Under the pieces are notes generated by a model, which saw only the letters and a program-made list of their open reading frames with translations, was not told where the DNA came from and searched no databases. The position numbers and the translations under genes were made by a program. A stretch of DNA of 64,000 bases from Opitutus sp. ER46 (GTDB lineage Bacteria > Verrucomicrobiota > Verrucomicrobiia > Opitutales > Opitutaceae), in the NCBI RefSeq assembly GCF_003054705.1, contig NZ_QAYX01000018.1:62001-126000 (forward strand), written 5' to 3'. Below, piece by piece: positions 13,292 through 63,776 of the stretch; within the stretch, counting starts at the first letter, position 1; each line of letters opens with the position of its first letter.

Positions 13292-14740
13292 TTAGCGCGA
13301 GGGTCGCGCGTGCTGGAGAATGAAATCCACGATGGGCGTTGGGTCGGCCAGGCTGTGCGGGTGGTGGTCCACGCCGGGTTTTCGGATCACCTGGATCGTG
13401 CCGCCGAGCGCACGATAGCGGGCCTCGACGAGATCGGAGTTCTCCTCGGGGATGGCGGCCGTGTCGGCGGTGCCGAGGACGTGAATGATGGGAATTCCGG
13501 CCGCGGCGAGCGGCGCGAGGTTGTCCACAGGATTGGGATACGCGAGCGCCTGCGAATCCGATTCGAATCCGTAAGCCGCCATCAATTCCGGCCAGAGGCC
13601 CGCGGGGCCGGTGCTGCGGCCACGGCGACCGGGCCAGCTCTTGAAATCGCAAACCGGCGCATCCCCGTAGATCGCCGCCACGGTTTCCGGGTGGAGGGCG
13701 GCCCAGTTGTAGCAGTAAAGGCCACCGCGGCTCATGCCGATGAGGACAATCTTGCCGGTGAGTTCCATGTGCCGGAACGCATCGAGTGCCTCCCCCCAGA
13801 ACCGCATCGCCACCGGCGCGCCGTACAGGTTCTGCGCCTTCACGTAGACAACGTGGTAACCGTGATTGAGCAGGGCGAGGTCCACCTGCGGTTGGTGCCC
13901 GAAGAACTCGCCGCGCCAGACCAGCGGGTGGCCCGGCGCGGTGCGATACGGCCGCACGATCGTGACCTCGCGGCCGCTCTCCGGCAGATGGAAGCCAAGC
14001 TGCCTGAACCCGTAGAAGGACTTGGGCGTTCGCCGGATGCCGTTGGCAAGAAGCTTCAGTTCGAGGTCGTACTCCCGGTCCACGGGTTGGCTGATCACCT
14101 CGGCGACACTCGCGGCGGCATGCTCCTCACCGGAGAAAACATACACGGGCTCAACCGCCGCGGCGAAGGCGGCGGCGCTCAACTTGGGCAACTGGGCCGT
14201 CCAGGCGTCGGCCGGGCGGGACTCGGCGTCGAACGCCGGGCCGCGCAGCACCAGGAGGATTCGGGCGGGGCTTGAAGCCCCGCGCGTCGCCTCGACCCAG
14301 CCGGGCAGGACGTCGGCCAGGCGGGCGACCTCGGCGGCGAGCTCGGCGTCGGCGCCGAACCGCGGCGCGATGACGATCACCTCGGTAGCGGAGGCCGCCA
14401 CCGGGGGCGGCGGCGTGGCAGGGTCGAGCGTCACCGCGACGCGGCGGACCGGCAGGCCGGGACCGGGGTCCGCGGGCGCTCGGAGACGTTCAGGTGTGAC
14501 CGTGTCGCTGCCGGATGCGCGACCGAGCGCCACGTCGACCCAGACGGCGCGGCGCGGTCGCGCGGCGGTCGACGATTGCTGGCAGCCGACCAACAGGACA
14601 CCCGCGACGGCAAGCAGGCCGAGCGCGGCCCCAAGCCGCCGCGCCCGCGATCGGAACGGCCGCTGCCAACAGGTGCGGATGACTTGAAGCAGGCCGGCAG
14701 GCGCAGCAGGACCGCGGGGATGAGAAAGCAGGCCGATCAT
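13292..14740 (-). CDS. Lipoprotein alpha/beta hydrolase (esterase-like)
   Basis: Predicted envelope-anchored serine hydrolase of 482 aa. The N-terminus contains a hydrophobic stretch ending in a lipobox-like VAGVLLVGC (about residues 44-52). The long region before it suggests that the true start may be internal. The hydrolase half shows the nucleophile elbow GMSRGG, a candidate acid in VLGTADTAAIPEENS and the histidine in PGVDHHPHSL near the end. Residues 75-200 form an extra N-terminal region with no family I recognise. It is encoded immediately upstream of the GH27 enzyme, so it may deacylate the same glycan; this is inference. An acetyl-xylan or feruloyl-type esterase cannot be distinguished. 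Confidence 0.75.
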   Translation of the reverse strand: MIGLLSHPRGPAAPAGLLQVIRTCWQRPFRSRARRLGAALGLLAVAGVLLVGCQQSSTAARPRRAVWVDVALGRASGSDTVTPERLRAPADPGPGLPVRRVAVTLDPATPPPPVAASATEVIVIAPRFGADAELAAEVARLADVLPGWVEATRGASSPARILLVLRGPAFDAESRPADAWTAQLPKLSAAAFAAAVEPVYVFSGEEHAAASVAEVISQPVDREYDLELKLLANGIRRTPKSFYGFRQLGFHLPESGREVTIVRPYRTAPGHPLVWRGEFFGHQPQVDLALLNHGYHVVYVKAQNLYGAPVAMRFWGEALDAFRHMELTGKIVLIGMSRGGLYCYNWAALHPETVAAIYGDAPVCDFKSWPGRRGRSTGPAGLWPELMAAYGFESDSQALAYPNPVDNLAPLAAAGIPIIHVLGTADTAAIPEENSDLVEARYRALGGTIQVIRKPGVDHHPHSLADPTPIVDFILQHARPSR

Positions 14741-15275: not shown

Positions 15276-16286
15276 ATGGGTCTCTTCCACCTGATCTCAC
15301 TACGGATATTGAGGGCCCTCAGCGAACTGGAATTCGAGTACCGGAGAAACAACACCGATACTCGTTTCCGGAGAAAGTACCTGAGGGCGCTGGGAGTTGA
15401 GTTTGAGTCACCGATCTCGATCGGGGTGGATTTCTACCTTCGCGACAAAGGACATTTGAGGGTCGGCCGGAACTGCTCTTTCGGCAGTTTCACCCGGATT
15501 TGGAACTATGCGGATATCGAGATCGGGAATGATTTTCTAAGCGCCGGCGGACTCACGATCAACTGTGGGGGGCACGATGTAGAAACCCTGCAGCCGACCG
15601 GGGGCCCTATTCGAATTGGCGATAGAGTATGGGCCGGGCTCAACGTCACGATCCTCGGCGGAGTGGTGATCGGCGACGATGTCGTGATTGGCGCCGGCAG
15701 CGTCGTGACGAAAAGCCTGCCGCCGATGGCGGTATACGGAGGTGTACCAGCCAAGAAGCTCCGGGAGCTAGACCGGTCGCGATGCACAACCTTGTGGGGT
15801 GGCTGGGGACCCATAAAAATGCCCGCCAGTGCGCTGGCCGAACCGGTGGCGTTGGTTGAAAGCCGCCTGCAGGCCGGGGACTTTTCTGGCGCACTCCAGG
15901 AAGCAAAAGCCAAACTTGAGGCCCACCCATCGGATGTCCGGCTGCATCTGCTTCGGGCCCGAGCCGCCGTGCAATTGGGGCAGATCGAAGAGTTCGAGAC
16001 CGCGCTCGCACGAGCCTTGGAGATTGAGCCCGAGTATCCGCCGGCCCATCGGCTTCTGGGCGATCTCTTGCTGGCCAATGGGCAACCCCAAGTTGCCATC
16101 GGACATCTTGGATTGGTCCTCCGACACGCGCCCGACGATATCGAACTTCGCCTCAAGTACGCGTCGTGTCTTGCGGACTGCGGCCAACGTGCCCAGGCAA
16201 TCGCAGCGTTCGAAGACGTGCTACAACGCGACCCGGGAAACCAGACAGCGACCGAGAAATTGCAGCCCCTCCGTAGAACGGTGTGA
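15276..16286 (+). CDS. Hexapeptide-repeat acyltransferase fused to TPR domain
   Basis: Cytoplasmic protein of 336 aa in two parts. Residues 1-175 form a left-handed beta-helix O-acetyltransferase of the maltose/galactoside or capsule-modifying type: repeated hexapeptides such as IRIGDRVWAGLNVTILGG, VVIGDDVVIGAGSVV and the terminal VYGGVPAKKL; the usual catalytic His is in INCGGHDVE. Residues 190-330 are tetratricopeptide repeats (ALQEAKAKLEAHPSDVRLHL, ALEIEPEYPPAHRLLGDLLL, IAAFEDVLQRDPGNQTA). The start ATG is 87 bp after the tRNA. The protein probably acetylates a surface sugar, with the TPR part recruiting a partner; that is inference. It has no operon partner. Confidence 0.85.
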   Translation: MGLFHLISLRILRALSELEFEYRRNNTDTRFRRKYLRALGVEFESPISIGVDFYLRDKGHLRVGRNCSFGSFTRIWNYADIEIGNDFLSAGGLTINCGGHDVETLQPTGGPIRIGDRVWAGLNVTILGGVVIGDDVVIGAGSVVTKSLPPMAVYGGVPAKKLRELDRSRCTTLWGGWGPIKMPASALAEPVALVESRLQAGDFSGALQEAKAKLEAHPSDVRLHLLRARAAVQLGQIEEFETALARALEIEPEYPPAHRLLGDLLLANGQPQVAIGHLGLVLRHAPDDIELRLKYASCLADCGQRAQAIAAFEDVLQRDPGNQTATEKLQPLRRTV

Positions 16287-19657: not shown

Positions 19658-20728
19658 ATGGAGGTGGCTATGCGCGACGGGAATCGGACGTACTACCTGA
19701 GCCGTTCGCAGCCGCCGTTCTTCGCGCTGATGGTCGAGTTGCTGGCGGAGAAGCGCGGCCCGGCGGTGTACGCGCGCTACCGTGCCGCGCTTGAGCAGGA
19801 GTACGCCTACTGGATGGATCTCAGCTTCGCGACCCAGCACGTGGTCAGGTTGCCGGACGGCAGCCAGCTCAACCGCTACTGGGATCGGCAGGACACGCCG
19901 CGGCCCGAGTCATTCGTCATCGATGAAGCCCTCGCTGCCCGGCGTCCCAGTGCCACCGCCGAGGAGACGAAGCGCCTGTATCGCGACCTCCGCTCGGCCG
20001 CCGAAAGCGGCTGGGACTTCAGTTCCCGGTGGTTCGCGGATGGCGAGACGCTGGGGACGATCATGACGACGGACCTCGTGCCGGTGGATCTGAACGCGCT
20101 GCTGTGGCAATTGGAGCGCACGCTCGCGATCGCGTTGCGGCAGGGCTCAGCGGCGGAGCGCGCCCGGGCGGAGCGGCTGGAGGCGACGGCGGAGAAGCGG
20201 CGCGCGGCGTTGCAGCGCGCGTGCTGGTCGGACCGGGCCGGGTTCTTTGTCGATTTCGAGCTGCGGCGGGCACGTCCGGCCGAGGCGTTGACGCTGGCGG
20301 GCGTGGTGCCGCTCTTTGTCGGCCTCGCCACCCCGGAGCAGGCAACGACCGCGGCCCGCACGCTGGAGCAGCGGTTTCTGCGTCCCGGCGGCGTCGTCAC
20401 AACGCTGCGTCGCACGGGGGAGCAATGGGACGCGCCGAACGGTTGGGCGCCGCTGCAGTGGATGACGATCCGCGGGCTGCAACGGTATGGACACGAGCGG
20501 CTGGCGCAGGAGATCGCGCGGCGCTGGCTGAAACTCAACCGCGACGTTTATGTCCGAACGGGCAAGATGATGGAGAAGTACAATGTGGAAGACTTGAGCC
20601 TGCCCGCCGGCGGTGGGGAATATCCGGCGCAGGATGGGTTTGGCTGGACCAACGGCGTGGCTCTCACGCTGCTGCGCCCGCCCTCGCCAGCAGCAGCTGC
20701 GACCGCGGCGGGAAGGCGGAGGAACTGA
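19658..20728 (+). pseudogene. N-terminally truncated trehalase (GH37)
   Basis: A 356-aa reading frame equals the C-terminal two thirds of trehalase. It begins at the conserved DGNRTYYLSRSQPPFFALM segment and contains the general acid Asp in ESGWDFSSRW, signature 2 (QWDAPNGWAPLQW) and the general base region GGGEYPAQDGFGWTNGV. Full-length bacterial trehalases are about 550 aa, so around 190-200 N-terminal residues are missing: signal peptide, signature 1 and the first helices of the (alpha/alpha)6 barrel. No matching sequence is found upstream, only repeats. Both catalytic acids are retained, but a partial barrel is unlikely to fold. I call it a decaying gene; a functional short form is possible. 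Confidence 0.85.
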
Positions 20729-21146: not shown

Positions 21147-21314
21147 CCGCACCGATTTCCGGTTGGCCGGCGGAGATTTTCCGACCGGCCGTTGGGGAGA
21201 ACATTCATGGCCGCGTCAATTGCGCGGCGTTGGCGGGGCGGTACGCTGGACGCCTCGGGAGAATGGATACGCCTGCGCCACTGACGCCCCAGCAGCGCTT
21301 CCAGATGTTTCTGG

Positions 21315-21683
21315 ATGCGGCCTGCGACTACGCTCGGAACCGTGCACGCCGACCGCGTGACTCTGGAGCACGTGTTCCTGAACCTGCTCTCCAATGCCCT
21401 GAAGTTTCGCCGGGCGGAGGAGCCGCCGCGCATCCGGGTGCATACCGAGCAGAGCGACGAGCGGCTGCGCGTGTGGGTCGAGGACAACGGCATCGGCATC
21501 GACCCGCGGTTTCGCGACCGCGTGTTCGGGATGTTCGAGCGGCTGCACCCGGAGCGGAAGACTCCCGGCACGGGCGTGGGCCTGGCGATTGTCGCCACGG
21601 CGGTGGAGCGGCTCGGGGGGCGCCGCGGCGTGGAGCCGAACCATCCGGCCGGCAGCCGCTTCTGGGTCGAATTCGTGCGGTAG
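21315..21683 (+). pseudogene. Histidine kinase remnant (HATPase domain only)
   Basis: A 122-aa frame covers only the ATP-binding domain of a sensor kinase: the N-box in FLNLLSNALKF, G1 in VEDNGIGIDP, the F-box in FGMFERLHP and G2 in GTGVGLAIV. The upstream phospho-acceptor and sensor domains are absent. The first in-frame ATG (21315) gives MRPATTLGTVHADRV, where 'HADRV' is the usual sequence just before the N-box. Another frame just upstream (ATG 21263) encodes MDTPAPLTPQQRFQMFLDAA, perhaps the joined start of another gene. It is 15 bp before an intact receiver gene whose partner kinase this probably was. Confidence 0.8.
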
Positions 21684-21698
21684 GTCGCACCCTGATTT

Positions 21699-22172
21699 AT
21701 GGAAAACGCTGATCCCGTAATCCTCGTCGTTGAGGACGACATCAATGACCAGACCTTCATCCAGCGCGCGTTTCGCCGGAGCGGTGTGACCAACCGCATC
21801 GCCATCGTGAACGACGGCGAGGAAGCCACGGCGTACCTGCGCGGGCTGGATCTCTATTCCGACCGGACGCTGCACCCGCTGCCGCGGCTGATCATCACCG
21901 ATTTGAAGATGCCGCGAATGAGCGGCATCGAGCTGCTGGGCTGGCTGCAGGAGCGCGAGGAATTCCGGCTCATCCCGGCAATCGTGCTGACATCGTCGAG
22001 CGACCAGACCGACATCACGCGGGCGTTCGAACACGGTGCGCGCGGCTACATGATCAAGCCGGTGGGCTTCGGCGAACTGGAGAAACTGGTGCACACCATC
22101 GCCGAATACTGGAAGGCCTCCTGCGTCCCCGCCGCGGTCGTGCCCCTCGGGGCAGGCCTCGGACGGAGATGA
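21699..22172 (+). CDS. Single-domain response regulator (Rcp1-like)
   Basis: A CheY-like receiver of 157 aa without an output domain. The acidic pair is in VVEDDINDQ, the phospho-acceptor Asp in LIITDLKMPRMSG, the Thr/Ser switch in IVLTSSSD and the Lys in YMIKPVGF. The elongated loop before the acceptor and the ending AEYWKAS match the Rcp1 group that pairs with phytochrome-type kinases. The adjacent kinase is reduced to its ATPase domain, so this regulator is orphaned locally. The last residues run up to the 102-bp repeat (22160), so the natural C-terminus may have been altered. Confidence 0.88.
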   Translation: MENADPVILVVEDDINDQTFIQRAFRRSGVTNRIAIVNDGEEATAYLRGLDLYSDRTLHPLPRLIITDLKMPRMSGIELLGWLQEREEFRLIPAIVLTSSSDQTDITRAFEHGARGYMIKPVGFGELEKLVHTIAEYWKASCVPAAVVPLGAGLGRR

Positions 22173-22261
22173 TCGGCCAATGCCTGGCGCGGCGCTAAGG
22201 TCCGCGCCCCACTCTGCTCAATCCTGCAACGCCAGCCGAAAACTGCCCACAGGCAGCGCGG
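22160..22261. repeat. 102-bp direct repeat, left copy (island flank)
   Basis: This is 98/102 identical to 32298-32399 with no gaps. Read on the minus strand it contains the last codons of the SASA-type esterase (ALPVGSFRLALQD then TGA at 22220-22218) and the gene's downstream hairpin GGCGCGG / CCGCGCC (22186-22208). Here it is not attached to any esterase gene. It lies between the receiver gene and the end of the first glycosyltransferase gene. Confidence 0.93.
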
Positions 22262-22274
22262 ATTTCGTCTCGGG

Positions 22275-24827
22275 CTATCGCGGGACGGCGCCCGTCGTAG
22301 CGGAGGCGCGAGCCTTGGCAATCGAGGCAAGCAGGGATTTGGCCAGGCCTAGATCCTCTGGTGTCATCGCCGGCCGGACCGCCCGTTGAATGCGCTGGAT
22401 GGCGCCCGCATAGTCCTGCTTCGCCAAGGCGTCCGCTGCCAGTCGAAGCTCTCGACGCAGTTCGGTCTCGGACTCCGTCACGGGCGCATCCGACCCCTCC
22501 GGGCTTGGACGGTAGTACAGCCACGTCTCGGAAACGTGAACGTCCGCGCTGCTTCCCGAGGCCCAATTCATCCACCCATTCCATTCTGATCCATCGCGAC
22601 CCGCGCCCGTCTGCAGGGCGACATCACGTCGGAGAAGAACGCATGGCGGAACCGAACCCTGCCACCGCGAGCGGTCACCGCCCCCGGTCTGTACCGGCGT
22701 CGTGTTCCCCGAAGCCGAAGTGCAACCTTTCCGCTTGAGCAGTGCCGTTGTGCCCTGCTCCAGAGCCCGAGGCGCGAGTCGATCCGTCGCGCGCATGGCA
22801 AGTATGTAGTCACCCCGTGCGGTCGCCATGCCGGCATTCCAGCAGCCGGCCAATTGGCTCGTGCCCGCCGCCACGAACTTGATGTTCCGTTCGGGATAAC
22901 AGGCTGCGAGGTGCGTCACGACTTCGCCGCTTTTGTCAGTGCTGCCAGCAGCCACCACGACGACCTCAAGGTTGCCCATCGTCTGGCTCATCACCGAGCC
23001 AATGGCTTCAGGAAGGAATCGAGCCCCATCATGGCTGAGCATCAGCACCGAAACCAGCGGCGGCTGGCCAGTGCCAGTGCTCGGTCCCTGGTTCCGGCTC
23101 AGCAACGTCCATTCCGCCGGCATCAGATCCATGTACTCAGTGGCCAGGTCATTGAACCAAGGCGTCGGCGCGATCACGATGCTCTGTGGTCCGGCGCCCA
23201 AAAAGGCGGCCCACCAGGCGAACGAACTGTTGGGGATGATAAAGTGTCGGCACCCCATCATCAGTTGGAGGTAACTGCTGAAGCGCTCGCCAGCGTAGGC
23301 ATGCGACACGATCGTTCGCGGAGCATCGCCCACGAGGTCGGCCTTGCGGCACCATTCCACGTCGTCAGAGAAGATAAAGAAGTGTGCGTCCGGAATCTGA
23401 GACCGGATATGGCGCACGGCGGAATGGAAGTAGCTCTCGGTGCAGACACCGTGGCAGGCGTTCGCTGCGGGATTGGTGACGTAGTCTGCCCGCCGCACGT
23501 TCAGACAGACGGAGGAGCAACTCGCGATGCGATCCGCGAGTTCCGTTTGCAGGGCATCCAATGGACGCGTGAACCGAGTGAACGTGCGACGCACCTCGGA
23601 GATCACCTCCGCAAAGTAGCGAGGCGACTGCCAGTAGCCGTCGAGATACACGCCCGCCCCCGCCGACGCGAAACGGGAATCAAAGCCATACTGCCGCTCC
23701 AAAAGGATGGACAGGTTGGCTGATGCTGGAGCCGATCCCTTTAGGATCTCGCAGTCCCGATCGAGGCTGAAGAGATCAAGATCGAAGTCGCGATAGGTGA
23801 AATTCGCGCGCGGCGTGCGGTCCAGAAGAAAGCTAAGGTCGAGAGCCAACTTGGCGCCGCTCCGGCGGGCAAGCGCCAGGCCGGCGGCGTACTGGAACAT
23901 CTGGTTTCCCATCCCGCCCTGGAGCTTGACCACGACCTTCCTCGGCCCGGAGCCGCAGGGTTCAGTTAACGTGGCCGCATGCGCCTTTTCCGGCGTGCTC
24001 GCAGGCGGTTGCGGAACGGGCAGTGCCGTCGCCAGAAAGGCACGCATGTCACGACGCCACACGTCCCACATCCCAAGTTCGCTGGGCACTTCAGCCACGA
24101 TGTACTCGCGCAGGAGAGCGTCAGCGGCGGCGAGTAATTCGTCCCGTCCCATGTCGGTCACCTTGACCGCCATCGCCTCGACGTTGGCCAGGTAGGGAGG
24201 ACGGGCCCACCGCCAGGTCTTGGTCTCAACGCTGAAACCCAGCCGGCTGAGCACATGCCGGTATTTCTCTTCGCTCCATCCGTCGTAGTGAATCGCCCAT
24301 CCCGCCTCTTGAGAGCCAAAGCAGTGACGGATTACTGCTTGTTTGATTCCGAACGGAGCATCGGAAACAAGCTGCTGGGCGCAGCCGAGCACGTCGGGCG
24401 TCTCCAGGTGCAGCCGACCACCAACCTTGAGCGCCTCATGCCAGATGATCAGCATGCCAAGCGCGTCCGACCGTTTAAAATGCTCAAAAACATGGTGCAG
24501 GCGGATCTCATCCACCGAGCGCGGCTGCATCCGCAGTTTGGTGACGTCCGCAAAGACGTCTGCCCCGATCACCGTCTGGCAGGTGTGCTCTGAGGGCGGA
24601 TAATCCACGTTCACATAACCATCGAAGTGCTTCTCGCCGCATCCAAGGTGCAGTCGCAATGGCGTGCCCTCGCGGTGCAGGCGAAGAGTCCGTAGTCGAG
24701 GCACCACATCATCTACTGGATCAAGCCGCGGTCGATTAGTGCGCGGAGATACAACGAACGGCATCATCTCTTCGGAGGGGAAAACTGAGTCTGGACTAGA
24801 AGAACTCATGAAAGGCGGCAGCGGCAC
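22275..24827 (-). CDS. Methyltransferase-fucosyltransferase (GT11)-GT2-like fusion protein
   Basis: An 850-aa multidomain sugar-modifying enzyme without signal or membrane segments. Residues 58-265 are a class I SAM methyltransferase-like domain (LRLHLGCGEKHFDGYVNVD, HHVFEHF), shared almost unchanged with the next gene. Residues 297-575 are a GT11 alpha-1,2-fucosyltransferase (KLQGGMGNQMFQYAAG, VRRADYV, NSSFAWWAAF); the motif usually written HxRRxD begins with Asn here. Residues 589-775 resemble GT2, but the nucleotide-binding 'DDGS' is VAAGST and the DxD site is RATD, so this domain may be inactive. The C-terminus (785-850) is helical. It lies 63 bp downstream of the FkbM fusion gene on the same strand. 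It probably builds a methylated, fucosylated surface glycan or decorates a protein. Confidence 0.87.
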   Translation of the reverse strand: MPLPPFMSSSSPDSVFPSEEMMPFVVSPRTNRPRLDPVDDVVPRLRTLRLHREGTPLRLHLGCGEKHFDGYVNVDYPPSEHTCQTVIGADVFADVTKLRMQPRSVDEIRLHHVFEHFKRSDALGMLIIWHEALKVGGRLHLETPDVLGCAQQLVSDAPFGIKQAVIRHCFGSQEAGWAIHYDGWSEEKYRHVLSRLGFSVETKTWRWARPPYLANVEAMAVKVTDMGRDELLAAADALLREYIVAEVPSELGMWDVWRRDMRAFLATALPVPQPPASTPEKAHAATLTEPCGSGPRKVVVKLQGGMGNQMFQYAAGLALARRSGAKLALDLSFLLDRTPRANFTYRDFDLDLFSLDRDCEILKGSAPASANLSILLERQYGFDSRFASAGAGVYLDGYWQSPRYFAEVISEVRRTFTRFTRPLDALQTELADRIASCSSVCLNVRRADYVTNPAANACHGVCTESYFHSAVRHIRSQIPDAHFFIFSDDVEWCRKADLVGDAPRTIVSHAYAGERFSSYLQLMMGCRHFIIPNSSFAWWAAFLGAGPQSIVIAPTPWFNDLATEYMDLMPAEWTLLSRNQGPSTGTGQPPLVSVLMLSHDGARFLPEAIGSVMSQTMGNLEVVVVAAGSTDKSGEVVTHLAACYPERNIKFVAAGTSQLAGCWNAGMATARGDYILAMRATDRLAPRALEQGTTALLKRKGCTSASGNTTPVQTGGGDRSRWQGSVPPCVLLRRDVALQTGAGRDGSEWNGWMNWASGSSADVHVSETWLYYRPSPEGSDAPVTESETELRRELRLAADALAKQDYAGAIQRIQRAVRPAMTPEDLGLAKSLLASIAKARASATTGAVPR
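24048..24679. repeat. 632-bp duplicated methyltransferase segment, copy A
   Basis: Gap-free match to 25755-26386 with 12 differences by direct alignment (about 98%). All but one are silent; the exception is Met/Leu near residue 100 of the first protein. It encodes about 210 residues of the methyltransferase domain. Both copies are in the same orientation, so they could recombine and delete or fuse the two genes. Confidence 0.95.
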
Positions 24828-24890
24828 TCAGGTTGCTCAGCAGCGAGGTGGGTCGGAGATGGCCCGAGACAATGCCCGGTCAAGAACAGG

Positions 24891-27521
24891 TTACTGGTGG
24901 GCACGATCTGAGGCCAGCGCCCGCTCCGCCGATTGGATGGCGCTTTGCTCGACGATCCCCGGCGCGAGCGCGAGGTAGTTCGAGTAACGAAAGTTCTCCA
25001 AGCTACTATCCCAGGCATCAACTGCGATCAGAGCGTCGGTACAAATCCTGAACACGCGATACCCAAACCCAGTCAAGTATTGGTATACCTCGCGCAGCGT
25101 AATCCCAGCATCCCGGTAGGTGCCGCCATACTCGAACTGAAGGACCTTGATTCGCTCATGGCCCAAAGCCTCGGAGGCACCGCGAAGGACCTCCAGTTCT
25201 CCGCCTTCGGTATCGATCTTCAAGAAGCTGACCTCTGCGATACCGATCTCTGCCATGAAACAGTCGAGACGCCGAGCCGTGACGACCGTCTGGGTGCCAT
25301 GGATACCCAGCCTATGCTCCACGTCGGCCCGTCGAAAGAACGAGTTCATTCCAGAGAACTCCGAACGGTCCTCGAAACAGATTAATGGCCGCTGCTCATC
25401 CATGGCGGCAAACGCCAGCCGATGTAATGTTGCATCGGTACCTCCCAGGTTAGTGGAAAGTATTTCAAACGTGCTTGGCGTCGGCTCAAACGCGTGGACG
25501 CGAACGCCCGGGGCAGCCGAAAGCACCGCCCGGCTCCAGTCGCCAATGTTCGCCCCGACATCAAACACCGTATCGCCCGCCTTGATAAAGGAGTGTACAA
25601 CTCTGAACTCCCCGTTCGTTTGGGGATTGTCGTTGTCAAAGCCGCAGTTCAACGCTGCCTCGCCAGCCATTCGCAGCATGGGCATGCCTCGTTGTGGAAG
25701 AACGTTATCTTTCGCGCCGGCTGGTGTCGTGATTTGAGCAAGATATTTGCGCAGGTCACGACGCCACACGTCCCACATCCCGAGTTCGCTGGGCACTTCG
25801 GCCACGATGTACTCGCGCAGGAGAGCGTCAGCGGCGGCGAGCAATTCGTCCCGTCCCATGTCGGTCACCTTGACCGCCATCGCCTCGACGTTGGCCAGGT
25901 AGGGAGGACGGGCCCATCGCCAAGTCTTGGTCTCAACGCTGAAACCCAGCCGGCTGAGCACATGCCGGTATTTCTCTTCGCTCCATCCATCGTAGTGAAT
26001 CGCCCACCCCGCCTCTTGAGAGCCAAAGCAGTGACGGATTACTGCTTGTTTGATTCCGAACGGAGCATCGGAAACAAGCTGCTGGGCGCAGCCGAGCACG
26101 TCGGGCGTCTCCAGGTGCAGCCGACCACCAACCTTGAGCGCCTCATGCCAGATGATCAGCATGCCAAGCGCGTCCGACCGTTTAAAATGCTCAAAAACAT
26201 GGTGCAGGCGGATCTCATCCACCGAGCGCGGCTGCAACCGCAGCTTGGTGACGTCCGCAAAGACGTCTGCCCCGATCACCGTCTGGCAGGTGTGCTCGGA
26301 GGGCGGATAATCCACGTTCACATAACCATCGAAGTGCTTCTCGCCGCATCCAAGGTGCAGTCGCAACGGCGTACCCTCGCGGTGCACGCCGCATCGGATC
26401 AACGCGGCGCACGCGTCCTCGCCGGGGTTAAGCCGAGGCCGGTCCTTACTGGGCTGGGAAGCCGGAGCAGCGGTGGCCGGTAGGTTTGGAGCGAGCGTCT
26501 TCAGCAGCGTCTGCGCCGGAAGGAAGTCCGGTACGCCCGCGACAAACTCGCGCAAACGCTCGATCGCGAGAACGTTGTTACCAGCGAGATGAAGGGAGAC
26601 GCATCCATACCATCGGCCTCGCCACTGCGGAAACCCAAGCTGCACCAATTCGGCAAACCGCTCGCTCGCGTCGGACATCTGGCCGCCGGCCATCACCACG
26701 AGGGCCTGCCAAAGCCGATAGTGGAGACCCAGGCCGAAAGCTTCGGAGCTCCGCGCCGCCTCCGGCAAGGCGAGCAGCGCCGCCCTTTCCTCGCCGCGCG
26801 CGGTGCCGATGACGCCCTCGGCCGACATCAGCTCTTCGATTGGCAAGTTCGCGCCGTCGAACAAACGGCTGATGGTGATGGCTTGGACGACATCGGTCGC
26901 CTCGCAGGGACAAGCCGGGGGCACCGCCACGGCCACGTCGCCGAGGACCAGGAACTGGTAGGCTTCGTCGATCGCGAGGACCGCCCGATGGACATCATTG
27001 AGCGACGGAAAACCACAAAAGTGGGCAGGCGTTTCGACGGCGAGGGCGCGGTTCTCAAACAAACGAATATCGCCGATCAGGATAATGACGTCTTTGCGAC
27101 CGCCCCTACCAATCGCCTGCAGTTCGGAAATCACGGGAATACCCGCGCGGCGCACAACCTCCGCGTCCCGCCGCCCATAGGCGTTCAACGAAACGAGCAC
27201 CCGGCCCGTCGCAGAAGGCAGGATCTGGCTGATCAGCTCAGGAGCCGCACCTTCGTGCACGGTGATGTTCCGAACCTGTTTACACCTAACGCGGGTCGCG
27301 GCAGCCACTGGGCCAGATCGGACGCAATCCACCGCCTGAACATTCGTGGCGGCGCTGACCGCAGATTCGCCCTCATCCGAGCCCACATCCACCATCGCGG
27401 TAATCCCGAAACGTCGCGTGATGTCCTGGAGAAAGTCAGCGCGCAGAGAACCGGATAAAGTCTGGGCCCGCCAGACCCTAAGGGGTTCGTTCTGGGCACG
27501 GTCGGAGTGAGGTGAACTCAT
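24891..27521 (-). CDS. Double methyltransferase fusion (class I + FkbM) with unknown N-terminal domain
   Basis: An 876-aa cytoplasmic protein. Residues 1-185 form an alpha/beta domain beginning ITAMVDVGSDEGESAV, reminiscent of a degenerate SAM-binding site. Residues 190-360 are mostly helical, with TPR-like content. Residues 379-588 are the methyltransferase module duplicated in the neighbouring gene. Residues about 635-850 are an FkbM methyltransferase (TVFDVGANIGDWS, VHAFEPTPSTFEIL, FLKIDTEGGELEVL), a family that O-methylates sugars and antibiotics. It is the first gene of the leftward pair and is transcribed from the AT-rich region it shares with the rightward glycosyltransferase gene. Probably involved in glycan methylation; the acceptor is unknown. 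Confidence 0.87.
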   Translation of the reverse strand: MSSPHSDRAQNEPLRVWRAQTLSGSLRADFLQDITRRFGITAMVDVGSDEGESAVSAATNVQAVDCVRSGPVAAATRVRCKQVRNITVHEGAAPELISQILPSATGRVLVSLNAYGRRDAEVVRRAGIPVISELQAIGRGGRKDVIILIGDIRLFENRALAVETPAHFCGFPSLNDVHRAVLAIDEAYQFLVLGDVAVAVPPACPCEATDVVQAITISRLFDGANLPIEELMSAEGVIGTARGEERAALLALPEAARSSEAFGLGLHYRLWQALVVMAGGQMSDASERFAELVQLGFPQWRGRWYGCVSLHLAGNNVLAIERLREFVAGVPDFLPAQTLLKTLAPNLPATAAPASQPSKDRPRLNPGEDACAALIRCGVHREGTPLRLHLGCGEKHFDGYVNVDYPPSEHTCQTVIGADVFADVTKLRLQPRSVDEIRLHHVFEHFKRSDALGMLIIWHEALKVGGRLHLETPDVLGCAQQLVSDAPFGIKQAVIRHCFGSQEAGWAIHYDGWSEEKYRHVLSRLGFSVETKTWRWARPPYLANVEAMAVKVTDMGRDELLAAADALLREYIVAEVPSELGMWDVWRRDLRKYLAQITTPAGAKDNVLPQRGMPMLRMAGEAALNCGFDNDNPQTNGEFRVVHSFIKAGDTVFDVGANIGDWSRAVLSAAPGVRVHAFEPTPSTFEILSTNLGGTDATLHRLAFAAMDEQRPLICFEDRSEFSGMNSFFRRADVEHRLGIHGTQTVVTARRLDCFMAEIGIAEVSFLKIDTEGGELEVLRGASEALGHERIKVLQFEYGGTYRDAGITLREVYQYLTGFGYRVFRICTDALIAVDAWDSSLENFRYSNYLALAPGIVEQSAIQSAERALASDRAHQ
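25755..26386. repeat. 632-bp duplicated methyltransferase segment, copy B
   Basis: Partner of 24048-24679. The identity starts and stops abruptly, inside coding sequence on both sides, and preserves reading frame in both hosts. This is as expected for a module copied between two genes or for repeated gene conversion. Confidence 0.95.
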
Positions 27522-27925
27522 AACGTAAGGATGGAATGCCGACTAGGCTGGCGGGGCGGCGTGCAGCAGAAGTGCGGTCCTATGCGCGACAGCAGCCGAT
27601 ATGCACGGGGAATTGTTTGCCAGTGTCTGAGGGCACACTGCCAAACAGCAGCAATTCTGCCACAAAGCGTGTATATTCCGTAACAATCTATTTGTTATAT
27701 ATTTATACGTATCAAGATCAACCATCGGCAGAAACTTCCGCATGGATGCTCAAAGGCGTTTCACACCCCGGACGTCCCGTCAGGTGTTTGCAGCGCGGCC
27801 GTAAACCGAGAATGGCCGCAGGCGTCCCAGGCTGACCGCCGCCGCGACAATGCGCTCGAGCCCTATTGGGCAGTTTTTGCCTGGGGCAATGGGGCAATAC
27901 ATAACGTTCTGTTATTCAACATTAA
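27522..27925. promoter_or_regulatory. Divergent control region with inverted repeat and AT-rich core
   Basis: This 404-bp gap separates the leftward methyltransferase genes from the rightward glycosyltransferase gene and must hold both promoters. GTTTGCCAGTGT and ACACTGCCAAAC (27615-27646) form a 12-bp inverted repeat with one mismatch and an 8-nt spacer, a plausible operator. Immediately right is a markedly AT-rich stretch (27660-27725, including TTGTTATATATTTATACG), the likely promoter core. No regulator gene is adjacent. Confidence 0.55.
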
Positions 27926-30900
27926 GTGGACCAATACCCGCAAATGGCAGAATTACTGCTTCGCGACCGTGTGCACACCGCTGCAGCAAACAATTCCCCC
28001 GGCACCTTGGCGCCGGGCGGCGTCGTTACCCCGGATGCCTGCCGCCAAGTGTTGGCGCAGGCCAATATCTCGTCCGAGCAGGCGCCGACGACAGCGGTTT
28101 CTGTGGTGATCAATTGCCACAACTATGCCCGCTACTTGCCGACGGCGGTGGCGAGCGTCCTCGCCCAATCGTACCGTTCGTTCGAGTTGGTGATCGTCGA
28201 TGACGGCAGCAACGACGGTTCGAGCGAGGTGGCAGCCGAACTTATACGGAAGCACTCGGATCAAGGCGTCACCTTGCGGTTGCTCCGGCTTGATGACGTC
28301 GGTCCGACGTCGGCGCGGCGCGCTGGCATCGCCGCAAGCTCTGGAAAGTACCTCTTGCTCCTCGATGCGGACGACAAGGTGGCACCCACGTTTCTCGCGA
28401 AGACGGTGCCCGTGCTGGAGCGCCATCCGAAACTCGGCTTCGTCTACACGGACTCCGAGTATTTCGGCGACGTCCAGCAACGGCATCGCCATCTCGATTA
28501 CGACTTCTCACGGCTCTGCGCCGGCAACTACATCAGCTATTGCGCGCTGATTCGCCGTGACGCCTATACCGCGGTGGGCGGGCACGATCAGACGAATTGG
28601 GGTTACTACGAAGACTGGGACCTGTGGCTCCGGCTGGGGGCAGCGGGCTGGGCGGGGCATCGGGTGGCGGAGCCACTCTTTCTCTATCATCAACACTTCT
28701 CTTCATCTTTGTCGGCGTTCGCGCGACGGCTCGATCCGATCTACAAAGCCTATGTCGTCCATCAGCACGCCACGCATTATCGCCCCGAAGCCGTGGCGAC
28801 GGCTCGAGCGCTACTGGCGGAAATGCCGGCCGGCTGGCACGCCAAGCCCCCGCTGCGGGACCTCGCAAGTATTCAAGCGGTGCTCTCGCTGAACCCGGGC
28901 AACCGCCACGTCCTCTATTTCCTCGCCCTTGCGCAGGCCCGCGCAGGCGGGATTGCCGCCGCGATCGCAACGTTACGAGAACTGCTCACCCGTCATCCCG
29001 GCGATGAACAGGCCCTCGAGCTCAGTACAGAATTGACAACAAAGCAGGGAAATGGCGCGACCCCGCCAAGTGCACCCATCGACCTGCGGGCGAAGACAGT
29101 CCTGCTCTTTACCGACGATGTTGGGCGGGGCGGGGCCGCCCACTACAACCATAGCGTTCTCCTGGGATTGCGCCGGGCGGGGGCGACCGTGGGCAACGCC
29201 CAGCCCAAGCACGATTCGCCCTTGCTGCGCGAGCAGGCCGCCGCCGGGGTGACGCACCACTGGCTTGCATATGAGCCGGAGCATGATTTTGCCCGCTCCT
29301 TTACCGACGAATCGGATGCCGAGCGCATCATCTCCGCCACTCGTCCCGACATCGTCTTCTTCAGCGACTGCTGTGCCCTTTCCAACCTCGCCGCCAAGGA
29401 GGTGGTGTTGCGGCGGGGCATCCCCTACGTGCTGATCTGCCACTCCGAGGCCGCATACCTCGCGGAGCGCTTTCCCCAGATTCTGCCACGGGCGACCAAG
29501 CTGCTCCGCGCCGCCGCCGGCGTGATCGCGGTCTCCAAGAGCAGCCTGCAGGTCCTGCACACGGCGTTCGGCCTTCCGCCCACGAAGGGTACGGTCGTCT
29601 ACAATGGTCGGGCGCAAAAATACTTCTCGCCCCAGAACCCCATCGCACGGGAACGCATTCGAAAAGAGCTGGGGCTACCGGCGAACGCCGTCCTCTGCCT
29701 GACCGTGGCGCGGCACGATGCCGCGAAGGGATTCCAGTTCCAGATTGAGGCGGCGCACCAGCTGCGGGCGAAGCAGGAGCTCGGCCCGCTGCACTTTGCC
29801 TGGGCCGGAGAGGGCAATGCCCAAGCCCAGCTCGCCGCGTTGGTGCAACAGGCCGGGCTCTCCGACCGCATTCACATGCTCGGCTACCGCTGGGACGTGA
29901 CGGACTTGGTAGACGCCGCCGACATCTTCGTCCTGCCCAGCTGCAGCGAGGCCCTGCCCTTGTGCATCATGGAAGCGATGGCGAAAGGTGTTCCGGTCAT
30001 CGCCTCGGCCGTCGGTGGCATTCCAGAGGAGCTTGGGGACACGGGTATTCTCGTCGCCCATCCGAACCTGGATCCCAAGCGAACTGTGGCCGAGCTGGCC
30101 GCGGGACTGTCGCGCTGGGCAAAGGACACCGCCGCACGCAAGCGCTCCGGCGTCGCGGCAAAACAACGGGCGAACGAGCTCTTCCGGGAGGAGCTGATGC
30201 TGACGCAAACGCTGGCCGTCATTGCGACCGGTCTGGCTCAGCCACGCGGGCTGCCGGTGACCGGGGCCTCGCCAGCGCCGGCGTTTCAGAACCTGATTCG
30301 CGAAGCACAGCTGGCGCTCCAGGCGCGCAAGCCGCGCGAGGCCGTTGCCCTGCTGGAAGCAGCCGCGGAGATTGCGCCGACACCGGAGGCTGCCGCCAAG
30401 GCGAGAGCCCTGGCCGCGGACGTGAAGCAGAAACTCGCGGGCGCGGTGGCGACACCGGCGGTGCGGGCCGACAATCTCAGAGAGGCGGAGAACCTCATCC
30501 AGCAGTACCACTCGTCTCCCGCGGACACCCTGGTGCTCACCAGGTTGAACGAGATCCGACGCGCGCTAGTGCAGGGTTTGCTCGCATCGGACCCGGGCCG
30601 GCTGGAAGGATTGTTTGCCGGCGAGTTTGGCCGCGTCTTCCGATCGCTCATTGCGAGCGGGTTTGTGGCGGAACCCGCCTCCGCTGAGCTCGAGGCACTG
30701 TTCCGACCGGCAGCCGGATCCGAGGCCAAGTCGGTGCTTTCCCGTCTGCTCGCCGGCATGCTCGTGCTGCCGGCGCACCGCGCATCGGTGCCACTGCAGT
30801 TCGATACGCTACCGCGCTGGTGCCTGGACGACGTGCTCGCGTATCTGCTCGCCGCTCCCCGGGTATTCACCGCCATGGGCGAGGCCGAGCAGTATCTCCG

Positions 30901-32269
30901 GCATCAGACCGCCCTGGGCGCGACAATCGTGGAGCGCACTCGGACGATGCCGTCTGATCCGCTAACCCTGCGGCTCGCGTCAGACTATGCGCTGAAACTG
31001 AACTGTATTCCGGCGTACGTTGCCCATGCGAACACCCGGGAGCTGATGCGGCACCGCGCCGCGCTACTCGAGTTCACGCTCGAACAGAAAGGAGCATCTC
31101 TCGACGCGAATCTGCCCAGGAGCCGGCGAAGGAGACTCCGGGTCGGCTTCCTCAGCGGCCATTTTGGGGCGCAGACCGAGACGCACGTCACTCTGCCGGC
31201 GCTGCACTTGGATCGAGAGCGATTCGAGACGTGGCTATTCCCCCTGCAGCTGAATCCGTCGCCAGTGGAGCAGCGTTGCCGCGAGCTGGCCGACCATTTT
31301 CACCCGCTCCCGCCGGAAGTCGGCCAGCAGGTCGCAACCATCCGCGGCGCCTCGCTCGACGTGATCATCATCGGCACCAACGTGACCGCGGTGACCAATA
31401 GCGTGGCCCTCCTCGCCGCCCATCGGTTGGCGCCCATCCAGCTGGTCAACTACTGCTCGCCGATGACCACCGGCTTACGCAACGTCGATGGCTATCTGTA
31501 CGGCTCGCTGAGCGTCTTCCCCGATGCAGCGGAGCACTTCACCGAGCAACTCGTCGTATGTGAGGGGGCGCCGGGCGCCCTCGACTATACCGGCGAGAAG
31601 GCGGGCACGATGCGCTTCGATCGCAAGTCGCTCGGGGTCGGTGAACAGGAGGTGCTCTTCGTCAACGCCGCTGCCTGCTACAAGATTCCGCTCGAGCTGC
31701 AGGAGACGTGGGCCTCGTTGCTCGAGCGGGTGGAAAACTCGCGGCTCCTGCTGCTCCCGTTCAATCCCAACTGGTCCAGCCGCTTTCCCACCCAGCGCTT
31801 TGCGCAGACCCTGCACGCCGCATTGCGCCGTCGCGGCATTGCCGAGGATCGCGTCATCCTCGCGGCATCGTTGCCCACCCGGGCGGACGTAAAGGAGATC
31901 GAGCGGCTCGGGGATGTGTACCTTGATACATTTCCCTTCTCCGGCAGCCTGTCCGTCATCGACCCGCTGGAGATCGGCCGGCCGGTTGTCGCCTGGGAGG
32001 GTAACACGCCTCGATCACGTGCGGCCGCGTCTCTGCTACGTGCGATCGGGCTCGACGAGCTGATTGCCAAGGACGAGGCGCACTACCTGACCCTTGCCAC
32101 GCGCCTCGCTCGCGACGGCGCCTATCGCAGCCGAATCGAAACCGCGATCCGGACCGCAATGGAACGTCGCCCGAAGTTCTTGGATCCAGTGGCCTATGGT
32201 GCCGACTTGAGTGATGCGCTGGAAAAGCTCGTGAGCAAGAGACCGACGCAGCGACTGGTCGCGGTCTGA
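27926..32269 (+). CDS. Tri-functional glycosyltransferase: GT2, GT4 and GT41-like domains
   Basis: A 1447-aa cytoplasmic protein with three predicted sugar transferase modules. GT2 lies at about 57-270 (VVINCHNYARYL, VIVDDGSNDGS, LLLLDADDKVAP), with intact nucleotide and metal sites. A short TPR-like segment follows (290-370). GT4 lies at about 391-770 (LLFTDDVGRGGAAHYN, VARHDAAKGFQFQIEAA, PLCIMEAMAKGVPVIASAVG). A helical linker (800-1050) precedes a C-terminal O-GlcNAc-transferase-like GT41 domain at about 1069-1430 (VGFLSGHFGAQTETH, the catalytic-site Lys in CYKIPLELQETW, LDTFPFSGSLSVIDPLE). Such a chain could prime and extend a glycan on a protein Ser/Thr. It is monocistronic and divergent from the two methyltransferase fusions. 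It lies inside the repeat-flanked island. Confidence 0.9.
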   Translation: MDQYPQMAELLLRDRVHTAAANNSPGTLAPGGVVTPDACRQVLAQANISSEQAPTTAVSVVINCHNYARYLPTAVASVLAQSYRSFELVIVDDGSNDGSSEVAAELIRKHSDQGVTLRLLRLDDVGPTSARRAGIAASSGKYLLLLDADDKVAPTFLAKTVPVLERHPKLGFVYTDSEYFGDVQQRHRHLDYDFSRLCAGNYISYCALIRRDAYTAVGGHDQTNWGYYEDWDLWLRLGAAGWAGHRVAEPLFLYHQHFSSSLSAFARRLDPIYKAYVVHQHATHYRPEAVATARALLAEMPAGWHAKPPLRDLASIQAVLSLNPGNRHVLYFLALAQARAGGIAAAIATLRELLTRHPGDEQALELSTELTTKQGNGATPPSAPIDLRAKTVLLFTDDVGRGGAAHYNHSVLLGLRRAGATVGNAQPKHDSPLLREQAAAGVTHHWLAYEPEHDFARSFTDESDAERIISATRPDIVFFSDCCALSNLAAKEVVLRRGIPYVLICHSEAAYLAERFPQILPRATKLLRAAAGVIAVSKSSLQVLHTAFGLPPTKGTVVYNGRAQKYFSPQNPIARERIRKELGLPANAVLCLTVARHDAAKGFQFQIEAAHQLRAKQELGPLHFAWAGEGNAQAQLAALVQQAGLSDRIHMLGYRWDVTDLVDAADIFVLPSCSEALPLCIMEAMAKGVPVIASAVGGIPEELGDTGILVAHPNLDPKRTVAELAAGLSRWAKDTAARKRSGVAAKQRANELFREELMLTQTLAVIATGLAQPRGLPVTGASPAPAFQNLIREAQLALQARKPREAVALLEAAAEIAPTPEAAAKARALAADVKQKLAGAVATPAVRADNLREAENLIQQYHSSPADTLVLTRLNEIRRALVQGLLASDPGRLEGLFAGEFGRVFRSLIASGFVAEPASAELEALFRPAAGSEAKSVLSRLLAGMLVLPAHRASVPLQFDTLPRWCLDDVLAYLLAAPRVFTAMGEAEQYLRHQTALGATIVERTRTMPSDPLTLRLASDYALKLNCIPAYVAHANTRELMRHRAALLEFTLEQKGASLDANLPRSRRRRLRVGFLSGHFGAQTETHVTLPALHLDRERFETWLFPLQLNPSPVEQRCRELADHFHPLPPEVGQQVATIRGASLDVIIIGTNVTAVTNSVALLAAHRLAPIQLVNYCSPMTTGLRNVDGYLYGSLSVFPDAAEHFTEQLVVCEGAPGALDYTGEKAGTMRFDRKSLGVGEQEVLFVNAAACYKIPLELQETWASLLERVENSRLLLLPFNPNWSSRFPTQRFAQTLHAALRRRGIAEDRVILAASLPTRADVKEIERLGDVYLDTFPFSGSLSVIDPLEIGRPVVAWEGNTPRSRAAASLLRAIGLDELIAKDEAHYLTLATRLARDGAYRSRIETAIRTAMERRPKFLDPVAYGADLSDALEKLVSKRPTQRLVAV

Positions 32270-32297
32270 CACCGCGAGGTTCACTCGGCGCGGGTCC

Positions 32298-32399
32298 CGG
32301 ACGGAGATGATCGGCCGATGCCTGGCGCGGCGCTAAGGTCCGCGCCCCACTCTGCTCAATCCTGCAACGGCAGCCGAAAGCTGCCCACGGGCAGCGCGG
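32298..32399. repeat. 102-bp direct repeat, right copy
   Basis: Overlaps the 3' end of the SASA-type esterase gene (stop at 32356-32358) and its hairpin GGCGCGG / CCGCGCC (32324-32346). The matching copy is at 22160-22261, in the same orientation. The hairpin could terminate both the esterase operon and the convergent glycosyltransferase gene. Confidence 0.93.
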
Positions 32400-34179
32400 C
32401 GGAGTTCTCGAGCGTGGCGACGGGATTGTCCTGCCAGGCGTACCGAAGTGAGACCGGCGCCGCCACGGCGGGCGACGACACGCGCACGCCATCGGGCGCG
32501 CATAGCTCGGTGGTGGCGGCGTGCCAGACGCCGTCGGCGCCAGCGAGCTCGAAACCTTGCGGCGCGCCACCCTCGCGCGTGCGGAGGCCCGTGCCCACCG
32601 CGGAGAATCGCACCCATGCGATGCTCCGCTCGAGGCCTTGGGCCATGGGCGCCGGGCTCACCACCGGCTCCTCGGCGCGGCCGTACACGGTCGCGAGAGC
32701 CCAGCGCGCGAGGCGCTCGGCGACGGGGCGCTTCTCGACCGGGTGAATGTTGTCCGCCTCGCCCACGTCGAGCGCCACGACCAGCCCGGTGCGCGGCACC
32801 GTTGCCACCACCTGGCGCTGTGCGTCACGCAGCTCCGCCCAGTCACTCTTGCCCGGCTGGGAGCGGCGTGGCCCGTAGTTGGCCAATTGCACGATGCCAA
32901 AGGGCAACGCGGGATCGCGCCACAGCGTGCGCCACGTGGCGATCAGCTGCTCGAGCCGCGCCGGGTACTCGGCGGCGCGGGCGACATCACTCTCGCCCTG
33001 ATACCAAAGCACGCCGCGCACCGGAATTCCGGCCAAGGGATGTATCATCCCGTGGAACAGCACCGAGGCCGGCAGCCGACGCGCCGGCGCGCGCCAGGCC
33101 AGCGCCCGCTCAACTCGCGCCCGCCACACCCCGTCGAGCGTGAGCGGGACACTGTCGGCCGACCCAGACCGCAGCGTCACGCCACCGACGATCCCGCCAT
33201 TGCCCCAGTGATCGAAAACCCGGATCGCGATCGTCACCGTGCCGCTGCCGGTTACCGAGGCCGGCACCTGATAAACGCGGCGGGCGGCGTAGGCGTTCGG
33301 GATGTCCGAGCCGAGACCGCCCACCTTGACGCCGTTCACGTACGTCTCGTCGAAGTCGTCGCACGCCCCGATCTCCAGCACCAGCGGCTGCGCCTGCCAC
33401 GCGGGCGGCAGCGCCACGGTCCGGCGATACCAGACCGCTCCATTGTGACACCAACCCTGGTCCTGCCAGTAGCCGGGAACCGGCAGCTCCGGCCACGCCG
33501 CGTCGTCGAGCGCCGGACTCTCCCACCCGCTCGCGACCGCGCCGCGCGCCTCATACGCGTACGGCGTGAACGCCACGGCCGTGGTTTCCGCCGCGCCAGA
33601 AGCCGCCAGCGCTCCGGCACTCTCCGTCGGCGGCAACCAGGCGGCGATTTCACTGCCGCCGTACGCCGCGACGATCAGGCCGACCGGACGTCCGGTCGCT
33701 GCCCGAAGCCGCCGCGCAAAATAGTACGCTACCGCGGAAAAATCGCGGCGATGCTCGCGGGTCGCTGGCCGCCACGTCCCGGTGACCTCGCTCGCGGGCG
33801 TGTCGTGCGGCACCCGGCCCACGGTGAACACGCGCAGCGCCGGATCGTCGGCGTCGGTCTCCGCCTCCGGATGGCCGAGCATGCCGAGTGTCCACTCCAT
33901 GTTCGATTGTCCCGACGCCAGCCATACCTCACCGGCGAGCAGGCCGGATCGGCGCGCCTCGTCCTCACCGCTGCGCACGACCAGCTCGTGAGGACCACCC
34001 GGCGGGACTGGCGACAGCTCCGCGCGCCAGCCGCCGCCGCGGTCAGCCACAACACTCGCGTGCTGGCCGGCCAGGGTCAGCGTGACGGTAGCGTCGGGGC
34101 CTGCGGTGCCGCGGAGCACCAAGGGACGTTCGCAAGGCAGCACGGCGTGGTCGCCGAGCCAGGACGGCAGCGTGAGCAT
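32356..34179 (-). CDS. Sialate O-acetylesterase-family (SASA) carbohydrate esterase
   Basis: A 607-aa SGNH-type esterase that removes O-acetyl groups from sugars. The catalytic Ser is in GEVWLASGQSNMEW (residue 92). The second block is GLIVAAYGGSEIAAWLP, there is an inserted beta-sandwich (WYRRTVALPPAWQAQPL), and the catalytic His is in GEADNIHPVEK near residue 478. No signal peptide is evident, suggesting cytoplasmic action, or export by another route. I chose ATG 34179 (MLTLPSW), which starts 1 bp after the stop of the preceding gene; an in-frame ATG 14 codons upstream lies inside that gene. It is the last gene of the GH38 operon. In glycan-use loci this family deacetylates xylan, mannan or sialic acids; acetyl-mannan fits the context. 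Confidence 0.9.
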   Translation of the reverse strand: MLTLPSWLGDHAVLPCERPLVLRGTAGPDATVTLTLAGQHASVVADRGGGWRAELSPVPPGGPHELVVRSGEDEARRSGLLAGEVWLASGQSNMEWTLGMLGHPEAETDADDPALRVFTVGRVPHDTPASEVTGTWRPATREHRRDFSAVAYYFARRLRAATGRPVGLIVAAYGGSEIAAWLPPTESAGALAASGAAETTAVAFTPYAYEARGAVASGWESPALDDAAWPELPVPGYWQDQGWCHNGAVWYRRTVALPPAWQAQPLVLEIGACDDFDETYVNGVKVGGLGSDIPNAYAARRVYQVPASVTGSGTVTIAIRVFDHWGNGGIVGGVTLRSGSADSVPLTLDGVWRARVERALAWRAPARRLPASVLFHGMIHPLAGIPVRGVLWYQGESDVARAAEYPARLEQLIATWRTLWRDPALPFGIVQLANYGPRRSQPGKSDWAELRDAQRQVVATVPRTGLVVALDVGEADNIHPVEKRPVAERLARWALATVYGRAEEPVVSPAPMAQGLERSIAWVRFSAVGTGLRTREGGAPQGFELAGADGVWHAATTELCAPDGVRVSSPAVAAPVSLRYAWQDNPVATLENSAALPVGSFRLPLQD

Positions 34180-34180
34180 G

Positions 34181-34771
34181 TTATTTCTGGCGCTCGCCGG
34201 ATGCCCCGGCAGCGGGCCCAATCAACGGCAGATCGATCGGACGGCCGGCCCAGTAGAGCAGGACGCCGCCGATGACCGCGCCGCCCAGGCCGGCGAGGAT
34301 CAGGACGGCGGGCGCGAGCCAGGTGCTGATGACGAGTGGGAAGATCGCGTGCGAAGGCTGCGCCGGATCGTAGCAAACCAGCACGGTGGTCGGCAGCCCG
34401 TCGGCATCGGTCAGGGGAAAGAGCGGCTTGAGCTGGCTGCCAACCGAGCCGCGTAGTTCGACCGTGGCGCCGCTGCGGGTGCGGAGTCGAAACTCGTTCC
34501 AGAAAACGAAGCTCCGGTCGCGGATTTCCAGTTCGCCCTGCAATGCGTGATCCTCGGTGAAAACGCGCGGAGCAACGCCCGGTTTCTCCTTCACGACGCG
34601 CACCACCTCGGCGCGGGCCCGCTCGCCCGTCAGGAGCACCCGCAGCGGCGTCCAGATCTGCGTGACGCCGAATCCGAAGACCAGGAGCGAGCCGACGAAC
34701 ATGAGCTGCTTGGGCAGCCGGTAGCCGGGGGTATACGTGGCCGGCGCCGGGGATGATGGGGTTGGGTTCAT
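34181..34771 (-). CDS. DUF3592-type membrane protein
   Basis: A 196-aa protein with two transmembrane helices (about 24-44, QLMFVGSLLVFGFGV; and 148-175, LAPAVLILAGLGGAVIGGVL). They enclose an extracytoplasmic beta domain with ARAEVVRVVKEKPG, DRSFVFWNEFRLRT and TTVLVCYDPAQPSHA, the usual DUF3592 pattern ending in 'VxYDPxxP'. The function of the family is unknown. It overlaps the transporter gene by four bases (ATGA) and abuts the esterase start, so it is translated as part of the operon. It may assist the transporter (inference). Confidence 0.78.
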   Translation of the reverse strand: MNPTPSSPAPATYTPGYRLPKQLMFVGSLLVFGFGVTQIWTPLRVLLTGERARAEVVRVVKEKPGVAPRVFTEDHALQGELEIRDRSFVFWNEFRLRTRSGATVELRGSVGSQLKPLFPLTDADGLPTTVLVCYDPAQPSHAIFPLVISTWLAPAVLILAGLGGAVIGGVLLYWAGRPIDLPLIGPAAGASGERQK

Positions 34772-59661: not shown

Positions 59662-59830
59662 AGCCAGAGGCCGGAAGCCAGAGGCCGAGATACAAACGTC
59701 AGATGAGCCCCACAGTCGGACTGCAAACGATAACTCGCCAAATCTGGCGAGTTATCGCCATTCAGACCGGCCGCTGGCCTTCCGTCTTCCGGCCTCCGGC
59801 CTCCGGCCTCTGGCTTCTGGCCTCTGGCCT
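59645..59830. repeat. GCCTGAAGCCAGAGGCCG-type repeats flanking a 13-bp palindrome
   Basis: Left of centre the motif runs GAAGCCTGAAGCCAGAGGCC; right of centre (59778-59830) it is in reverse complement. In the middle CGATAACTCGCCA / TGGCGAGTTATCG (59728-59757, 4-nt loop) makes a perfect 13-bp hairpin. The cluster lies between the convergent MATE and DUF167 genes and supplies both their stop codons. It may act as a bidirectional terminator. Confidence 0.85.
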
Positions 59831-60099
59831 CAGCGGACCAACGCTGACCGGACGGCGGCGAGATCGAGGCCGTCGATGCGGACGACCTTCTGGCGCGAGG
59901 TGTCGCCGCGCAGGACAGTGACCGCGCGGCGCGGAAGCTGCAGCGTGTCGGCAAGAAATTCGCAAAGCGCCTCGTTGGCCTTCCCCTCCACCGGCGGCGC
60001 GTGGACCTTCACCTTGAGCGCGTCGCCCAGCCAGCCGACCACCTCGGTGCGTGGGGCATTCGGGATCGCCTTGATGGCAAGGGTGCAGGACGGGGCCAT
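59830..60099 (-). CDS. DUF167 (YggU-like) protein
   Basis: An 89-aa protein with the DUF167 pattern: LAIKAIPNAPRTEVVGWLGD, LKVKVHAPPVEGKANEALCE and QLPRRAVTVLRGDTSRQKVV. It is a small alpha/beta protein of unknown function. The start at 60099 gives the family's usual N-terminus. The TGA stop lies in the neighbouring repeat cluster. It is 44 bp downstream of the PncC-like gene on the same strand. Confidence 0.88.
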   Translation of the reverse strand: MAPSCTLAIKAIPNAPRTEVVGWLGDALKVKVHAPPVEGKANEALCEFLADTLQLPRRAVTVLRGDTSRQKVVRIDGLDLAAVRSALVR

Positions 60100-63621: not shown

Positions 63622-63776
63622 GGCCGGAAGCCAGAGGCCAGACGTCAGACGTCAGATGTCAGATGTCGGAAGCCAGAGGCCGGAGGCCTGAAGCCAGATG
63701 TCAGATGTCGGAAGCCTGAACCCAGAAGCCTGAATCCAGAGGACAGAGGACGGCCAGATGGCAGAAGCCAGAGGCC
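63556..63776. repeat. Dense GACGTCAGATGTC / GCCTGAAGCC repeat array
   Basis: Irregular tandem copies of CAGACGTCAGATGT and GAAGCCTGAAGCC/GGAAGCCAGAGGCC fill the 3' end of the PLP-enzyme gene and the following DNA. This is the same family as at 59645-59830. The units are degenerate, with no unique spacers, so it is not a CRISPR array. Confidence 0.85.

Follow-up and report, generated by a model that had tools for sequence, protein, structure and literature searches.

A glycan-modifying gene island between two copies of a convergent gene junction in Opitutus sp. ER46, probably inserted as a circle without an integrase of its own

In a window of 64,000 nt from Opitutus sp. ER46 (the whole stretch of DNA analysed here), three large glycan-modifying genes lie between two direct copies of a 116-nt sequence, R. 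Each copy contains the entire convergent junction of a response-regulator receiver gene and a carbohydrate esterase gene; of these two genes, the receiver stands complete on the left of the island and the esterase on the right. The locus is probably an integrase-less genomic island, formed when a circle carrying R inserted by a single crossover at this junction. Surface-glycan genes differ greatly among strains, and how they spread when no mobility genes accompany them is understood only in part; at this locus R preserves both target genes, which provides a clean, testable junction.

A repeat search of the window identified the pair at 22146-22261 and 32284-32399, on the same strand and 93% identical (blastn E 2e-44 within the window). 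The preliminary description had reported a 102-bp gap-free repeat in the same orientation with four mismatches. This block is present as claimed, with mismatches at 22179, 22232, 22242 and 22251, yet the full repeat is slightly longer: 14 nt to the left of the block extend it and add four further mismatches, and the receiver-tail match beyond the 102-bp core is confined to these 14 nt, which counts against the circle reading given below. When 400 nt were included on either side, a stringent local alignment still covered exactly 116 ungapped nt, showing that R ends abruptly on both sides. It is the single such pair genome-wide (5.7 Mb), with R at no other locus, and among 373 genomes of the order, own genome included, the only matches outside the own genome were chance-level fragments of 21-57 bp. 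The pair is not due to chance. Both copies lie between converging genes, as would be expected if they were instances of a common terminator module and not traces of recombination. Such a module, or a chance resemblance, is nevertheless extremely improbable, as 116 nt matching at 93% and including the coding tails of two unrelated genes is very unlikely to arise in this way, the genome holds no repeat family of this kind, and the hairpin in R folds no better than shuffled sequences.

The left target gene encodes a stand-alone response-regulator receiver (21699..22172, + strand; PF00072, 1.2e-18) whose 3' end lies inside R, and the right target gene a SASA-type carbohydrate esterase (32356..34221, - strand; PF03629, 1.9e-22) whose stop codon, 32356-32358, lies inside the right copy. 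To the left copy (22146..22261), the complete receiver gene contributes its final 8 codons and stop; a 45-bp spacer with a 7-bp GC stem follows, and then the last 13 codons and stop of the esterase without its gene. In the right copy (32284..32399), the same receiver tail occurs without its gene, followed by the spacer and the 3' end of the complete esterase gene. The receiver tail on the + strand reads LGAGLGRR-stop in the left copy and LGAGPGRR-stop in the right; on the - strand, the 13 codons and stop that end the real esterase gene in the right copy recur in the left with no gene attached. The repeat had previously been derived from a single gene 3' end, with the right copy described as the end of the SASA esterase plus a terminator-like hairpin and the left copy as the same last 14 codons without an esterase gene. 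The esterase end stands in both copies, as 13 codons plus stop, but the receiver 3' end on the right and the tail of the receiver gene on the left had been overlooked. The derivation is thus incomplete, since each copy reaches across the convergent junction from one gene into the other, and this also argues against the left copy being a leftover second esterase. We considered the spacer hairpin as a terminator and rejected it: the 7-bp GC stem has no T-run, its fold is no better than shuffles (z -0.4 to -0.8), and a terminator scan did not call it.

Five of the seven coding differences between the copies are synonymous (null mean 2.3, P = 0.044), a marginal bias suggesting that the copies may have diverged as if still part of working genes. 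Directly upstream of the receiver gene is a histidine kinase cut down to its ATPase domain (21263-21683), apparently a remnant, and a trehalase gene at 19658-20728 lacks its N-terminal third (Pfam positions 169-509 of 512).

Both outer genes are intact, and the tail of each recurs across the insert, next to its partner, which is the expected product of a single exchange between a circle-borne R and a chromosomal R. We propose that the receiver and esterase genes once met, in an ancestor, at a single convergent 116-bp junction R, and that a DNA circle bearing one R together with the three glycan-modifying genes would have entered through a single reciprocal exchange inside it. The outcome would be the order receiver-R-island-R-esterase with both outer genes intact, and this is the order observed. 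An earlier suggestion that the cassette arrived by homologous recombination of a circle is retained in part: the circle is the best-supported reading, while RecA-type homologous recombination and a recombinase acting in trans could each have made the exchange and are not separable by sequence. The two copies would accordingly represent the footprint of a single-crossover circle insertion or of paired attachment sites. Recombination between them would be predicted to remove the island precisely, leaving receiver-R-esterase in frame again. Their 93% identity would mean that the event is old or that the donor had diverged, and the circle model leaves the acquisition of R by the circle unexplained.

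A tandem duplication would likewise put both tails in both copies, if the receiver-esterase pair had been doubled and the island had then replaced almost all of the inner esterase and of the inner receiver. The truncated genes in the left flank indicate that the region does lose DNA. We regard this history as quite improbable, as it requires an insertion and, besides, two cuts made independently of each other, one within 44 bp and the other within 27 bp of the same spacer, and there is no other trace of the inner genes, the stringent alignment stopping at the repeat borders.

No other 10-kb stretch of the window is as poor in GC as the body of the putatively circle-borne island (22262..32283; 10,022 bp), whose GC content is 0.628 where the remainder of the window has 0.683. 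The GC3 of the island genes is 0.71-0.78, against a mean of 0.87 (sd 0.05) for 27 other genes. Low GC is common in glycosyltransferase genes even when there has been no recent transfer, which counts against an argument from composition. The lowest GC3 of the set (0.67) belongs to a TPR/hexapeptide-repeat gene at 15276-16286, possibly foreign too. The first island gene (22275..24827, - strand) encodes an 850-aa protein with a GT11 domain (fucosyltransferase-type; PF01531, 4.6e-35), a GT2 domain (PF00535, 2.1e-11) and a methyltransferase-like domain, the last assigned through the domain it has in common with the adjacent 876-aa gene. The 876-aa protein (24891..27521, - strand) combines this same domain with an FkbM methyltransferase (PF05050, 7.8e-23; TIGR01444 above cut-off), and the third gene (27926..32269, + strand) encodes a 1447-aa protein with GT2, GT4 and GT41 (OGT/SPINDLY-type) domains. 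All Pfam domains in the island are glycan-modifying or TPR, which bears out the earlier view of three giant glycan-modifying genes and nothing else between the repeats; 13 and 14 bp separate the repeats from the outer stop codons. The own genome contains no further copies of island DNA. Used as a query across the order, the FkbM protein matched only itself and revealed no related island, and against a plasmid collection it gave single-domain matches only, none covering 80% of the query.

The methyltransferase-like domain is encoded by a duplicated segment of 640 bp, present at 24043..24682 in the 850-aa gene and at 25750..26389 in the 876-aa gene, both on the - strand. The copies are in frame and 97.8% identical, and both appear to be kept working, since 11 of their 14 differences are synonymous. 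Recombination between them would remove 1,707 bp (569 codons) and fuse the two genes in frame. It is conceivable, though improbable, that the cassette is still active, with host recombination alone excising and inserting it at the convergent junction and so toggling a surface or flagellar glycan, and with the 640-bp duplication allowing gene fusion.

Pfam scans of 37 gene models in the window detected no integrase, transposase, relaxase or transfer domain, so that the reported absence of integrase, transposase and relaxase holds among the scanned genes; the models were picked by a GC-frame rule, which might overlook a short or atypical gene. Genome-wide, the tyrosine recombinase family gave seven matches, none on the island's own contig (C18) and none linked to R. 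On another contig, C23, two large tyrosine recombinases lie ~5 kb from a second SASA esterase (locus L048, G000:C23:112001-132000), and a 171-bp stretch of this recombinase region is repeated at 77%. A tie between that esterase and these recombinases was considered and rejected, as the sole long repeat (L048 8271-8441 / 9847-10017) lies away from the esterase end.

The absence of relaxase, integrase and transfer domains is also expected of a fully decayed integrative element, which would have carried an integrase, used R as its attachment site and, after shedding that integrase and its transfer genes, left attL/attR-like ends behind. Gene 3' ends are the usual targets of integration, attachment repeats around plain cargo are known as CIMEs (PMC5704250), and the two copies of R are identical over a 52-bp core that surrounds a 7-bp inverted repeat. 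We nevertheless consider this origin unlikely. The locus retains no integrase remnant, and its genes fill the island to 13-14 bp of the repeats, so the loss would have had to be total. Moreover, the R core found no match in viral contigs, and the uniqueness of R in the genome likewise speaks against an element of this type.

The closest described system is the microcin H47 island of E. coli, which spans 13 kb between imperfect direct repeats of 148/144 bp, contains no recombinase and has been detected to excise and integrate (PMC3191183), with RecA-independent mobility (PMC5426353). The H47 island thus demonstrates that such a recombinase-free design can be mobile. The two islands are alike in a cargo of ~10-13 kb, in long imperfect direct repeats (116 bp here vs 148/144) and in having no recombinase inside. 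They differ in that the cargo is not the same, R here spans two gene ends, and excision and integration of H47 were seen by experiment and its empty sites are widespread, whereas the present island is known from the sequence of one locus alone. As in CIMEs (PMC5704250), the cargo lies between attachment-like repeats without integration or transfer genes; in contrast to CIMEs, neither a parent ICE/IME nor an adjacent element sharing these sites was seen for the island, and no integrase remnant. Replacement flexible genomic islands (PMC4033161) share with it a glycosylation cargo, probable spread by homologous recombination and mostly synonymous border differences, but they exchange one cluster for another at a fixed locus whose flanks are conserved, whereas the present island has a duplicated junction and looks additive. 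The ssrA islands of Dehalococcoides (PMC3146451) are similarly low in GC and flanked by a duplicated gene 3' end, yet their repeat is 20 bp of one RNA gene and a serine-recombinase integration module is present in sixteen of them. The locus is a further example of a known, uncommon recombinase-free island arrangement, and if our reading is true, the design of E. coli H47 would reach another part of the bacterial tree.

No empty R site was found, as the searched genomes yielded no orthologs of the flanking genes, only distant paralogs, and no sister strain was among them; nor was a circle junction or donor found. The esterase had no match at 1e-110 in 372 other genomes sampled from the order, its best matches at genus level were 36-38% identical, and a search of wider genome contigs returned distant homologs only, mostly titled Planctomycetes/Planctomycetota. 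Among 27 genomes of the genus there was no receiver ortholog (best match 46%) and no match at 1e-100 for the downstream MFS-type gene.

Relatives of the cargo give some indication of its function. In two genomes of the same genus, G006 and G008, there are genes 52% identical to the GT41-type C-terminal half of the 1447-aa protein, and in both genomes this relative shares an 18-kb stretch with genes for flagellin, one resembling fliD and one resembling pseI (pseudaminic acid synthase). A more distant GT41-type relative occurs in G310 (41%) and a partial one in G023, with no flagellin within the stretches read. The four flagellin matches of the own genome are on a different contig, C25, where the GT41-type domain has a 41-43% paralog at a distance of ~10 kb from two of these matches; the island itself is not adjacent to flagellin genes, as a flagellin glycosylation locus would be. 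With GT41-type relatives in flagellin/pseudaminic-acid loci and the own flagellins on another contig, the cargo was probably brought in from elsewhere as a cassette for flagellin or surface glycosylation. Judging from its domains and the setting of these relatives, it would probably glycosylate and methylate flagellin or another surface glycoconjugate, flagellin being a reasonable guess as the target.

Two further features were seen in the window. ARAGORN called a tRNA-SeC at 14214-14305 on the - strand, which is absent from Rfam at the gathering threshold and possibly false. Repeat arrays based on 7 nt, of the GCCAGAA/GTCAGAC type, occupy 59649-59705 and 63539-63763, with an inverted stretch at 59781-59831.
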